Shown here piece by piece: positions 712 to 32,713 of a stretch of DNA of 41,152 nucleotides. The notes under the pieces are model-generated. The model was given only the letters and a program-made list of their open reading frames with translations, was not told the origin of the DNA and made no database searches. The position numbers and the translations under genes were made by a program. This stretch comes from Bacteroidota bacterium (lineage in GTDB: Bacteria; Bacteroidota; Bacteroidia; 2-12-FULL-35-15): the NCBI GenBank assembly GCA_003151815.1, contig PLYN01000035.1, positions 1 to 41,152 on the forward strand. Direction: 5' to 3'. Every line of letters starts with the position of its first letter. Position 1 is the first letter of the stretch.

Positions 712-1863
712 ATGGCTTCCTCAGATAAACAATTGCAATATATGCAGGATTTTTTAATCAATATTGCAGAGGGTAATTTTGATGCAAAACTCAATATTTC
801 AAATAGAAGTGATAAAGAATTAGTTGCAATGCAAGTTGGTATCAATATGTTGGTTGAAGAATTAAAATCGACAACGATATCACGTGTTTTTTTGAATAGC
901 ATATATGATAGCATAAATGATATTCTTGTTGTTTTAAATGAAAAAGGGGAAATTCAAAGAACAAACAATATTGTTGAAACTCTTTTATTTTATCCAGAAT
1001 CAGAACTACTTCATCAATCGATAGAAAAATTGATCCGAGTTGAAGATTTTGAAGTTGTTAAAGATTATATCCGAAATGTTTTTGATAATAGAGAAACTCA
1101 AGAAATTGGTTTAAATTTCATAACTAAAAATAATTCCTCAATCCCTGTAGCTTGTTCCTTTTCGGTACTCTACAATAAACAACATCAGCCTTCTGGGATT
1201 TTGCTGGTAGCTAAAAACATTACGGCACTTTTACAAGCTAAAAACAACTTGCAAACCCCAGTCAAAAATAACTTTCAATCCCTTTTTCATACTCCTAGGA
1301 AGGATGCGTTACTCGTAGAAGGTAAACATGATAAAATTCACATAGAAACGGCTTTACAATACTTGTCAATAGAATATCCAGATTTAGAATTTGATGTTTT
1401 CGATATGAATGGGGCAGCTAACATTAAAAGAATGATGATTCTTTTGGAGAGTTTTGGTCATATTACCAAACATAAAATAATTGCAATTTACGACAATGAC
1501 AAAATGGGACTTTCAGAAATTAGTCAGAACTTCAATAAAACCAATGAACCTATTTTTCGGCTCACTGTTAAAAAAGGAAAACCTTCTGCAATTTTTTACG
1601 GCATATTACTTCCAGAGCCAATTGATTTTATGGAAGATTTCACAATTGAGAATTTTTATACTTCAGACAAATACCAACAGGCATATAAGGAAGCCGTTTC
1701 AAAAATAAATTTTTTAAGTAACAAATCTATTAATACTATAAATGATAATATTAGAGATGAATCCAAAAATATTTTAGCTAATAGTTGCATAAGCTTTCAG
1801 AAAAGTGATTTTGAAAACTTCAAACCACTTTTTGAGTTATTAAGACAAATTAAAGCTCTATGA
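712..1863 (+). CDS. PAS domain protein fused to an OLD-like TOPRIM domain
   Basis: A 383-aa soluble protein numbered from the ATG at 712; an in-frame TTG at 667 would add 15 Lys-rich residues but lies upstream of the likely transcription start. Residues about 8-60 resemble the HAMP-like linker common before PAS domains in Bacteroidota signal proteins (IAEGNFDAKL, INMLVEEL). Residues about 61-172 form a PAS domain, with SINDILVVLNEKGEI at its start and a GILLVAKNIT ending. Residues about 196-320 carry TOPRIM motifs: LLVEGKHD with E203, and IIAIYDNDKMG with D261 and D263 (the DxD pair), then IENFY near 312-316. TOPRIM domains of the OLD type bind metal and cleave or bind nucleic acid. No ATPase, histidine kinase or GGDEF domain is present, so TOPRIM seems to be the output of the sensor. 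The stop overlaps the next start as ATGA, implying translational coupling. Domain assignment is from motifs only. Confidence 0.75.
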   Translation: MASSDKQLQYMQDFLINIAEGNFDAKLNISNRSDKELVAMQVGINMLVEELKSTTISRVFLNSIYDSINDILVVLNEKGEIQRTNNIVETLLFYPESELLHQSIEKLIRVEDFEVVKDYIRNVFDNRETQEIGLNFITKNNSSIPVACSFSVLYNKQHQPSGILLVAKNITALLQAKNNLQTPVKNNFQSLFHTPRKDALLVEGKHDKIHIETALQYLSIEYPDLEFDVFDMNGAANIKRMMILLESFGHITKHKIIAIYDNDKMGLSEISQNFNKTNEPIFRLTVKKGKPSAIFYGILLPEPIDFMEDFTIENFYTSDKYQQAYKEAVSKINFLSNKSINTINDNIRDESKNILANSCISFQKSDFENFKPLFELLRQIKAL

Positions 1864-2297
1864 ATGCAACTTATAGTTCAGTACATTTAATAAAAAAGCT
1901 CAAGCAATTGAAACCATTTATTCTACTTGCAATATTATTATTTCCATTTACAATTATTCATGCTCAAAATATGTATGACGGTAGTGGTCATCAATTAGGC
2001 AGAGTGGATGGGAAATATTATTACAATGGTTTCGGAAAACGGATTGGTCGTGTTGATGGAAATTATATTTATGATGGTTCGGGTCATCAAATAGGCCGGA
2101 TTGAAGGTGAATATCTTTATGATGGTTCCGGAAAACAAATGGGTAGAATAACGGATGAATATTTATACGATGGTTCAGGCAAGCAAATCGGACGAATAAA
2201 CGGAGATAATATTTATGATGGTTCCGGAAAACAAATTGGTAGAGCCGATGGCTTAAGAAGAATGCAAAAAATCATTTTCTTTTATTTTTTTATGTGA
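1860..2297 (+). CDS. secreted protein with six 16-residue YDGSGKQIGR repeats
   Basis: A 145-aa protein with an N-terminal signal or anchor segment (hydrophobic at about 20-34, then HAQ at 34-36). Residues 39-131 consist of five full and one partial copy of a 16-residue unit, typically YDGSGKQIGR followed by an acidic/Gly residue pair and an aromatic or aliphatic end. The spacing suggests repeating beta-hairpins. The last 13 residues (RRMQKIIFFYFFM) are strongly hydrophobic, possibly a membrane-inserting tail. The start codon overlaps the stop of the PAS-TOPRIM gene by ATGA, so the two are probably co-translated. I have seen similar repeats with the same hydrophobic tail in Bacteroidota proteins of unknown function. 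No catalytic residues can be suggested. Confidence 0.75.
   Translation: MNATYSSVHLIKKLKQLKPFILLAILLFPFTIIHAQNMYDGSGHQLGRVDGKYYYNGFGKRIGRVDGNYIYDGSGHQIGRIEGEYLYDGSGKQMGRITDEYLYDGSGKQIGRINGDNIYDGSGKQIGRADGLRRMQKIIFFYFFM
1974..2252 (+). repeat. 48-bp tandem repeat inside the secreted repeat protein
   Basis: Six units of 48 bases (the last one partial) encode the YDGSG..GR motif. The units have diverged at the DNA level but keep length and frame exactly, so the repetition is protein-level and under selection. Confidence 0.8.
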
Positions 2298-6822: not shown

Positions 6823-7209
6823 ATGACCAATAATAAATTTGAAATAAAATCCATAGGAAATTTGATTTTTCGGATTGAATTTTTTAATGGTGCGGGTATT
6901 GACTTAACTGATGCCGAATTAATCCACGAAACATTGACTAGTCTTGCTCAAGGGAATAAATATTGTATTTTGTTAGATGCTCAACATCAGTTTACCACTA
7001 CTCCTGAATCAAGGGCATTTGTAGCCAAAAAAGTTTCGGGACGAATAGCATTTGCAATAGTTACCAAATCAATCGCAAATAGATTAGTCGGTAACTTTTT
7101 TATTCAATTTAATAAACCCGTTTCTCCAACAAGGTTATTTGCAGATGAAGATGCTGCGATACAATGGTTAAAAGAACAAAAAGAGCAATTCGATTCTTTA
7201 AATAAGTAA
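6823..7209 (+). CDS. STAS/SEC14-like small conserved protein
   Basis: A 128-aa soluble protein. The layout (a short beta-rich N-terminus, YCILLDAQ, AFAIVTKSIANRLVGNFFI, then KPVSPTRLFADEDAAIQWL near the C-terminus) resembles the SpoIIAA/STAS-like family frequent in Bacteroidota, whose members end with a conserved AxxWL helix. The function of the family is unclear; the fold suggests small-ligand or protein binding rather than catalysis. It converges on the lpd gene with a 24-base gap and has its own 105-base upstream region. Confidence 0.65.
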   Translation: MTNNKFEIKSIGNLIFRIEFFNGAGIDLTDAELIHETLTSLAQGNKYCILLDAQHQFTTTPESRAFVAKKVSGRIAFAIVTKSIANRLVGNFFIQFNKPVSPTRLFADEDAAIQWLKEQKEQFDSLNK

Positions 7210-8937: not shown

Positions 8938-10767
8938 ATGAAGTATATAATCTCTTATAAAAATCCTCACGATCATTTTATCGATATTGAATTTATTGCA
9001 GATAAAATAGATCAGGATGAACTGTTGGTTAATTTGCCTGCATGGCGTCCGGGGCGTTATGAGATGGGTAATTTTGCTAAAAATGTTCAAAAATGGAAAG
9101 CATACGATTCAAACGGTAATGTTTTAGTATCCGAAAAAACAAAAAAGGATTGTTGGAAAATTCAAACAAAAGGTATTACTGAGGTGCATATCAAATACAA
9201 TTATTATGCTGCTGAAATAAATGCAGGTTCAACATTTTTAGATGTCTCACAGATCTATATGAACCCTGTAAATTGCTGTGTTTATATTCCTGAACGCATC
9301 AATGAAGCTTGTGAACTTTTCTTAAGATTACCTAATGATTATCAAGTGGCAATTGGTTTAACACCTCAGCCCAACACCTCTCAGCCTCATCCGCCTTCGG
9401 CACCTTCTCCAAAGGAGAAGGGAATTGGAAACAATTTTTTGGAGAGAGGCTTTTTCGCAAATAATTTTCATGAACTTGCGGATTCTCCTTTTATTGCAAG
9501 TAATGCTCTTCAGCACGATTCATTTTTATCTGCCGGTGTAACATTTAATATTTGGTTTCAAGGCGAATGTAAACCTGACTGGACAAAGCTTAAGACTGAT
9601 TTCTTGAAATTTGTGAATGAACAAATGGCAATGATGAAAGCATTTCCGGCTGAACACTATCATTTTTTATTTCAGATACTTCCTTACAAAACATATCACG
9701 GTGTTGAACATGTTACATCCACTGTCATTGCTTTAGGGCCCGGATACAATTTAATGAAAAATGATCTGTATGAAGATCTGCTAGGAGTGAGTTCTCACGA
9801 ATTATTTCATGCATGGAATGTGAAGACCATTCGTCCGATTGAGATGCAGCCTTACGATTATTCTACCGAAAACTATTCAAAATTGGGATATGTTTGCGAA
9901 GGAGTAACAACTTATTATGGCGATCACTTATTATTCCGTTCAGGTGTATTTAATGAAGAACAATATTTAAAAACTTTTGCAGATCGTTTACAAAAACATT
10001 TTGATAATTTCGGACGTTTTAATTTGTCGGTTGCAGATTCTTCGTTCGATACATGGCTGGATGGTTATACTCCCGGAGTGCCCAATCGCAAGACATCCAT
10101 CTATGATGAAGGTTGTTTATTAGCCTTTGTTACAGATATATTTATCCGAAAAAACAGTAACAATAAAAATTCACTGGATGATGTAATGCGTTATTTGTAT
10201 ACTGAATTTGCATTAAAGAACAAGGGTTATTCTGCCGAAGATTATAAAGGTGTTGTTGAACATTTTTCAAATACTTCTTACGATGAAATATTCTATAATT
10301 ATATTAACAAGGCTGTTGATTATGAACCAATACTTATTGATGCCATGGAATATATCGGTTGTGAATTATCGAAAAGCTCCTCCGGTAAAGTTCATGAACA
10401 AGCCTTAGGTATTAAGGTGTCGGCTGTTAATGGTGCTTGTAAAATAATTTCGGTATACCCGGATTCGGTTGCTGATGCTGCCGGTATTTCAATTAATGAT
10501 GAGATACTTGCAATAAATAAAATGCAAATAAAAACAGATAGCTCGGGAACAAATTTCTCTGAGTGGTGTAATTATTTTGCTGCTGATATTTCCGGAAAGG
10601 AAGCGTTAAATTTAACAATTGCATCACAAGCAATCATAAGGGAACTTGAGCTGAATCCTCAACAGAATACCTATTACAAAATAGTTGTTATGAAAAAATC
10701 AGTATCAGCAAATAAAGAACAAAAAAATAATTTTGAAACCTGGAAAAATAAAAAAATGGAACGCTGA
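8938..10767 (+). CDS. M61 family metallopeptidase with PDZ domain
   Basis: A 609-aa protein. An N-terminal beta domain typical of M61 covers about 1-185 (PAWRPGRYEMGNFAKNV). The catalytic zinc motif HELFH is at 287-291, followed by the M61-typical AWNVKTIRP, with the third ligand Glu probably in YVCEGVTTYYGD near 320. A PDZ-like region lies at about 470-545 (ALGIKVSAV, VYPDSVADAAGISINDEILAIN). There is no signal peptide, so the product is probably cytoplasmic. Known M61 members are glycyl aminopeptidases, but the substrate here is unknown. Residues about 143-171 (Pro/Ser-rich, then ERGF) look like an insertion encoded by a palindromic repeat. The stop codon TGA lies inside the left arm of the downstream GGAACGCTGAT element. 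Confidence 0.92.
   Translation: MKYIISYKNPHDHFIDIEFIADKIDQDELLVNLPAWRPGRYEMGNFAKNVQKWKAYDSNGNVLVSEKTKKDCWKIQTKGITEVHIKYNYYAAEINAGSTFLDVSQIYMNPVNCCVYIPERINEACELFLRLPNDYQVAIGLTPQPNTSQPHPPSAPSPKEKGIGNNFLERGFFANNFHELADSPFIASNALQHDSFLSAGVTFNIWFQGECKPDWTKLKTDFLKFVNEQMAMMKAFPAEHYHFLFQILPYKTYHGVEHVTSTVIALGPGYNLMKNDLYEDLLGVSSHELFHAWNVKTIRPIEMQPYDYSTENYSKLGYVCEGVTTYYGDHLLFRSGVFNEEQYLKTFADRLQKHFDNFGRFNLSVADSSFDTWLDGYTPGVPNRKTSIYDEGCLLAFVTDIFIRKNSNNKNSLDDVMRYLYTEFALKNKGYSAEDYKGVVEHFSNTSYDEIFYNYINKAVDYEPILIDAMEYIGCELSKSSSGKVHEQALGIKVSAVNGACKIISVYPDSVADAAGISINDEILAINKMQIKTDSSGTNFSEWCNYFAADISGKEALNLTIASQAIIRELELNPQQNTYYKIVVMKKSVSANKEQKNNFETWKNKKMER
9374..9450 (+). repeat. palindromic repeat inserted in-frame in the M61 gene
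   Basis: CCTTCTCC (9403-9410) and GGAGAAGG (9414-9421) form a perfect 8-bp hairpin with a 3-base loop. CCTCTC (9377-9382) and GAGAGG (9444-9449) form an outer pair. The composition, with CCGCCTTCGGCACC, is GC-richer than the gene around it. It encodes about 26 Pro/Ser/Lys-rich residues where M61 relatives run straight on to the FHEL..DSPF motif. Confidence 0.7.
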
Positions 10768-31675: not shown

Positions 31676-32713
31676 ATGGCTAATCTCTTTCGCATATTAT
31701 CAATTGATGGCGGTGGTATTCGTGGTATTTTGTCGGGGCAATTATTAGTTGCCTTGGAAAAAAAGATTCAGCAAAGATCAGGAAATCCCTCCGCTCGTAT
31801 TGCTGATTATTTTGATATGATCGCCGGTAATAGTACCGGAGGCATTTTAGCTTGTCTTTATTTATTTCCCGATAAAAACATTCCTCCACGACCTCTTTTT
31901 TCTGCGGAAGATGCTGTAAATTTATATTTGCAACACGGACAGGAAATTTTTAAAGATGAAATTCGTCAGAAATTAATTTCATTGGGAGGTTTAACAAATG
32001 AAAAATATCCTGTTGATCATTTTGAGAGTTTATTAAAGAAATATTTCAAGGATATAAAATTGAGTCAATTGCTCCGTCCATGTATTATCCCCTCTTATAA
32101 TATTACCAAGCGCAGCACTCATTTTTTTACCCAGCATGATGCAGTAAAAAATGTAGATCATGATTTTTATATTCGGGATGTAGCAAGAGCTACATCAGCT
32201 GCTCCCACCTATTTTGAGCCGGCATGCGTGTCTTCCTTATCAGATGTGTCTTATCCATTAGTGGATGGCGGTGTATTTGCAAATAACCCATCCTTATGCG
32301 CTTTTGCGGAAGCCCGACAACTATTCAAAAAAAATGATGCTTCAAAAAACCTAACAGCAAGTGAAATGTTTATTGTTTCCATAGGTACGGGTGCAGAAAA
32401 ACGCAGTTTAAATTATGATGTTGCAAAAGGTTGGGGAGCATTGGGATGGATTTTTCCGGTGTTAGATATTGTTATGTCTGGTGCTGTTGACACTGTTGAT
32501 TTTCAATTGCAACAAATTTTCGAATCGGTTGATTGTGCTCATAATTATATCCGAATAAATCCGGAATTAAAGGATGCTAAACCTGAAATGGATAATGCTT
32601 CATCTCAAAATATAGAAGCATTAAGAGAAGCCGGAATTATTAGTGCAGAAGCCAATGATGAAAAGTTGGATCAGATCGCAAGCTATATAGTGAATAGGAA
32701 AATTGAAGGATAA
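31676..32713 (+). CDS. patatin-like phospholipase
   Basis: A 345-aa soluble protein. The oxyanion loop DGGGIRG is at 11-17, the nucleophile S53 is in GNSTGG, and the catalytic Asp D197 is in VDGGVFANNP, so the Ser-Asp dyad is complete. Patatins hydrolyse acyl chains from phospholipids or other lipids. The fold and length match the CapV-type patatins of CBASS, but no CD-NTase, HORMA or Trip13 gene is near, so a defence role is not supported; a housekeeping lipid hydrolase is more likely. No signal peptide. Confidence 0.92.
   Translation: MANLFRILSIDGGGIRGILSGQLLVALEKKIQQRSGNPSARIADYFDMIAGNSTGGILACLYLFPDKNIPPRPLFSAEDAVNLYLQHGQEIFKDEIRQKLISLGGLTNEKYPVDHFESLLKKYFKDIKLSQLLRPCIIPSYNITKRSTHFFTQHDAVKNVDHDFYIRDVARATSAAPTYFEPACVSSLSDVSYPLVDGGVFANNPSLCAFAEARQLFKKNDASKNLTASEMFIVSIGTGAEKRSLNYDVAKGWGALGWIFPVLDIVMSGAVDTVDFQLQQIFESVDCAHNYIRINPELKDAKPEMDNASSQNIEALREAGIISAEANDEKLDQIASYIVNRKIEG

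Follow-up and report, generated by a model that had tools for sequence, protein, structure and literature searches.

The window analyzed in this study, a 41,152-nucleotide stretch of Bacteroidota DNA (contig PLYN01000035.1), carries a gene at 712..1863 on the forward strand whose 383-residue product, P0001, joins the PAS sensor module of a histidine kinase, past a signalling coiled coil, to an OLD-type TOPRIM-plus-helical unit. Judging from this domain composition, we consider P0001 probably (approximately 60%) to be a PAS-gated, metal-dependent nuclease. The open reading frame (ORF) is intact and comprises a sensor half (residues 1 to ~181) and a TOPRIM half (~195 to 383); Pfam recognized both a PAS and an OLD-like_TOPRIM domain, and the same architecture was found in a second protein, P0002. 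The genome holding P0001 is a draft, 76.6% complete. A first-pass annotation made from the DNA alone had described a PAS sensor fused to an OLD-type TOPRIM with no ATPase on the chain, a description borne out by the Pfam results and by a complete set of active-site residues.

The sensor half begins with a HAMP-like helical region (residues 1-56; 712..879), which is followed by a PAS domain (residues 61-172; 892..1227; PF00989, 3.2e-10; TIGR00229, 1.6e-12); the PF00989 match spans residues 61-168 and scores 40.5 bits against a cut-off of 22.6. The HAMP-like label, proposed in the first-pass annotation, is based on the two helices and connector of the predicted model and on a WalK profile spanning the region; it stood at the level of structure but not as a Pfam HAMP match. 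A predicted signalling helix or linker (residues 171-192; 1222..1287), with model confidence below 50 at residues 180-183, leads to the TOPRIM domain and C-terminal helices (residues 195-383; 1294..1860), identified by predicted fold and by Pfam (PF20469, residues 198-263, 31.0 bits against a curated cut-off of 23.2, 3.7e-7). The Pfam scan of P0001 revealed no ATPase, kinase, HAMP, or reverse transcriptase family.

The TOPRIM half was modelled with a predicted local distance difference test (pLDDT) score of 91, and its best structural match was the TOPRIM of retron Eco2, followed by OLD and PARIS AriB; a TOPRIM fold is thus predicted for residues 190-330. The two-metal pattern of OLD consists of E, E/D, DxD, T/S-x-E, and K, and its residues were matched by alignment, not by atomic superposition. 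P0001 carries E203 and D207 (1318-1320 and 1330-1332, within 1318..1332), each present in 43/43 other TOPRIM halves and aligned with residues 374 and 378 of the Eco2 chain; D261 and D263 of the DxD motif (1492..1500; 43/43 and 40/43); T311 and E313 of the TxE motif (1642..1650; E313 in 43/43); and K352 (1765..1767; 43/43). E203, D261, and D263, the residues originally singled out as catalytic, are thus kept in all or nearly all homologs. The TxE motif corresponds to T506/E508 and K352 to K562 in Burkholderia pseudomallei OLD, the Eco2 counterpart of TxE is S513/E515, and in a hidden Markov model alignment the RT-Toprim at L063 has S-x-E in the T311/E313 columns and a lysine aligned to K352. 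The seven residues of P0001 appear to constitute the full two-metal OLD set, and all are present in both fusions.

By sequence, residues 184-383 match the C-termini of ABC-ATPase/TOPRIM (OLD-type) proteins. Nineteen relatives of the TOPRIM half were found in genome_contigs, and a Walker A motif lies in the same frame in 18 of them; in the nineteenth, L045, it lies in a separate frame. L045 is an ABC-TOPRIM gene of a Flavobacterium metagenome-assembled genome that is split over reading frames. This TOPRIM was present in 1 of the 36 genomes of the window's genus, its own only (the order-level search covered the same 36), and in 3 of 395 genomes of a class sample, its own included; the other two matches lie in frames of 626 and 576 residues, both with Walker A. 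Two scans of viral_contigs revealed no relative.

P0002, a 376-residue protein on a 15.4-kb contig, shares 64% identity with P0001 along the full query length (100%), and its kinase and TOPRIM portions meet at the same two positions. It was the one other protein found with this architecture. A profile search limited by length (approximately 129-410 residues) returned 31 proteins, among which only P0002 was annotated with PAS and no other PAS-TOPRIM protein was found; the sequences of 19 of the 31 were read and showed no other sensor domain, and the others were judged by their listed domains. P0102, from the same search, is a 166-residue piece identical to the P0001 TOPRIM. In P0092 and P0095, a DUF4357 domain follows the TOPRIM, and their start resembles an ATPase tail.

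That P0001 might be an accidental, functionless chimera or an assembly error had to be considered, given the position of the gene at base 712 of a contig in a draft genome and the occurrence of its TOPRIM in a single genome of the genus. Nevertheless, an assembly error is unlikely because P0002 has the same architecture and joint, and the intact frame, the intact catalytic residues, and a sensor half that evolves no faster than that of the kinase also argue against a functionless product. We regard this explanation as very improbable. At the joint itself, P0001 is eight residues longer than P0002; the extra residues are a near-duplicate of the neighboring eight, with KNNLQTPV (177-184) and KNNFQSLF (185-192) encoded by a 24-nucleotide near-duplicate at 1240..1287 (forward strand) that is single-copy in P0002. 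The extra residues arose either by tandem duplication or as a scar left when another sensor half was placed on an older fusion.

The origin of the sensor half is apparent from P0003, a complete PAS histidine kinase encoded on a different contig of the same genome (G000:C18:60187). Residues 1-181 of P0001 are 88% identical to P0003, and the DNA is 86% identical (494/574) from 33 bases 5' of the ATG, an A-rich leader common to both genes, to nucleotide 1250, where the match stops at the coiled coil ahead of the kinase histidine domain. HisKA and HATPase_c were both detected by Pfam in P0003 and neither in P0001. Between the two sensor halves, dN was 0.065 and dS was 0.60 (NG86), values that blend the fusion and kinase lineages; they indicate that the copying was not recent and that the sensor half has evolved under constraint. 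The order of kinase, SPT-like enzyme, and DUF7793 genes was found again in genome G019; therefore, P0003 is probably an old resident gene and the fusion a derived one. Along the sensor half, dS was uneven (0.18 to 3.1 in 30-codon blocks). Gene-conversion tracts were considered and rejected, the silent differences not being significantly clustered (permutation 0.11, 0.14, 0.07).

Phylogenetic trees of 62 sensor halves and 45 TOPRIM halves disagreed on the relationship of the two fusions. In the sensor tree, P0001 grouped with the kinase of its own genome (99/95); the partners of P0002 were three other kinases (99/96). None of 200 bootstrap trees (0%) united the fusions, and a tree forcing them together was rejected (approximately unbiased test, p-AU 0.031). 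In the TOPRIM tree, which was made earlier than the length-limited search and contains neither its proteins nor RT-Toprims, P0001 and P0002 paired (97/87) and adjoined the ABC protein P0058 (96/91). Trees pairing either fusion with P0058 were not rejected (p-AU 0.15 and 0.096), so a single origin is favored but not shown. The disagreement between the trees points to one of two histories: the sensor half of one fusion was later replaced by that of a resident kinase, or the joining of kinase and TOPRIM happened twice, at the same site.

The same observations bear on an alternative role, in which the near-identical sensor halves of fusion and kinase paralogue pair in mixed dimers, so that the TOPRIM is drawn to the two-component pathway of that kinase or interferes there. 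The 88% identity to the resident kinase and the grouping of each sensor half with kinases rather than with the other fusion are consistent with such a companion role. However, the two genes are on separate contigs, and E35, G67, and Q179, which are altered in both fusions and to different residues each time, could insulate the fusion from the kinase. These three are among the 61 positions at which 90% or more of 60 kinase rows agree, and kinase output may depend on them; the chance of at least three such positions being changed in both fusions was 0.009, in a test chosen after the data were seen. On balance, the companion role seems unlikely. A related proposal, that a defence-type TOPRIM RNase is carried on a two-component sensor kept matched to the resident kinase because a shared signal or mixed dimers are required, is similarly doubtful.

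Under the preferred reading of P0001 as a PAS-gated nuclease, signal control and the cutting or binding of nucleic acid are suggested by the domains and by the Eco2 and OLD precedents. The sensor half would dimerize and respond to the cytosolic signal that the kinase also reads, and the state of the PAS domain would act through the coiled coil, either holding two TOPRIM units apart or bringing them together. This restraint or assembly by the PAS half is proposed because of the analogy with Eco2 and AriB. An active TOPRIM pair would cleave nucleic acid by means of a divalent metal, and RNA would be the most likely substrate, going only by the match to the Eco2 TOPRIM. Cleavage might then lead to growth arrest or to a stress or defence response. 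Over evolution, the sensor half would have stayed matched to a kinase through replacement from a resident one or through repeated fusion.

Several observations weigh against this reading. Only two full-length PAS-TOPRIM examples were found, no linked defence gene and no signal are known for the fusion, and the domain arrangement was not predicted, the full-length model having a predicted template modelling score (pTM) of 0.56. The linkers of the two fusions differ by eight residues, which is not a whole number of heptads and therefore speaks against strict helical-phase coupling, and the blending of lineages in the dN/dS comparison belongs here as well. The T311 column is not invariant (T in 37, S in 2, E in 3, and P in 1 of the 43 other TOPRIM halves). 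Moreover, position 244 is L in P0001 but G in 43/43 relatives and in P0002, and the TOPRIM branch length of P0001 is 0.44 versus 0.16 in P0002, such that the activity of its TOPRIM is possibly altered or weakened. The last two features would also fit a signal-gated protein whose TOPRIM binds nucleic acid or metal and acts as a switch or scaffold without cleavage. Because both fusions retain all seven catalytic positions, we consider such a binder distinctly unlikely.

The surroundings of the gene were also surveyed. The ATG of the downstream gene (1860..2297, forward strand) overlaps the fusion stop codon (ATGA); it encodes a secreted-looking 5-fold beta-flower protein (PF21785, 4.4e-24) with a signal-peptide-like start, and the two genes are possibly co-translated, with no functional link shown. 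The beta-flower gene was matched in 26 of the 36 genus genomes, its own included, and the three best other loci shared no neighbors with the window within approximately 1.5 kb on each side. DUF7793 genes lie 5 kb from the fusion (6823-7209, forward strand) and approximately 3-4 kb from the kinase paralogue (L024:9303-9698 and 9845-10240). The kinase, SPT-like, and DUF7793 order recurs in only one of six relatives compared, two of which are on short contigs, and a tie of DUF7793 to the fusion is therefore not claimed. A PADLOC scan of the fusion and five window proteins, the remaining genes being judged by eye, gave one weak match and one strong match, a patatin-like phospholipase (31676-32713, forward strand; 6e-69 against the phospholipase effector profile); no cyclase was noticed beside it in the ORF list, in which no dedicated search was made. 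Searching the window by tblastn (E 1) revealed no remnants of an OLD ATPase or of the catalytic portion of the kinase, and an OLD-type ATPase query, which was not AriA, gave four partial matches in the genome (best E 0.003), none convincing. No Rfam family, and hence no retron noncoding RNA, matched the window at gathering score; the contig covers only 711 bases upstream of the gene, and some retron RNAs have no family.

TOPRIM effectors are known under the control of ABC ATPases (OLD, Gabija, PARIS) or of a reverse transcriptase with multicopy single-stranded DNA (msDNA; Eco2). If the reading proposed here is true, an ordinary cell signal, rather than a phage-sensing partner, would switch a nuclease otherwise seen in anti-phage defence proteins, and the same effector would be shown to plug into ordinary bacterial signalling, within a compact one-chain system whose TOPRIM might be turned on or off by a ligand. 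If the sensor is shared, kinase and nuclease would share one input module, and the disagreement of the trees allows sensor replacement, or else repeated fusion, at a single joint to be put to the test. No description of a PAS and TOPRIM pair was found in the literature searched, which excluded most subscription papers, in agreement with the first-pass view of the combination as not recognized. An OLD review covers ATPase-linked classes and PARIS as separate genes, and a BREX paper mentions a minimal kinase to which Schlafen-type RNases are fused; the word PAS does not occur in the latter.

Compared with known systems, P0001 most resembles retron Eco2 (Ec67; type I-C RT-Toprim) in its predicted TOPRIM fold. 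The Eco2 TOPRIM is reported to be toxic on its own and to cleave RNA, and msDNA has been proposed to block it within the complex; Eco2 pairs it with a reverse transcriptase and msDNA, whereas its counterpart in the fusion is joined to a HAMP-like/PAS half, and by sequence the P0001 TOPRIM groups beside ABC-ATPase proteins in a tree that did not include RT-Toprims. With OLD nucleases (Class 1-3, including Gabija GajA), P0001 shares the TOPRIM and helical domain with the two-metal residues, and its nearest TOPRIM besides P0002 is that of P0058, an ABC-TOPRIM protein; however, OLD nucleases carry an ABC ATPase on their chain, which P0001 does not, and none was convincing in its genome. PARIS AriB is held by a separate ATPase, AriA, and once freed dimerizes and cuts tRNA, whereas the regulator of P0001 is fused and is a PAS half. 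Residues 1-181 resemble Bacteroidota cytosolic PAS histidine kinases (P0003 and its kin), in which HisKA and HATPase_c stand where the TOPRIM stands in the fusion. P0001 is thus a known kind of TOPRIM effector with a new sensor.
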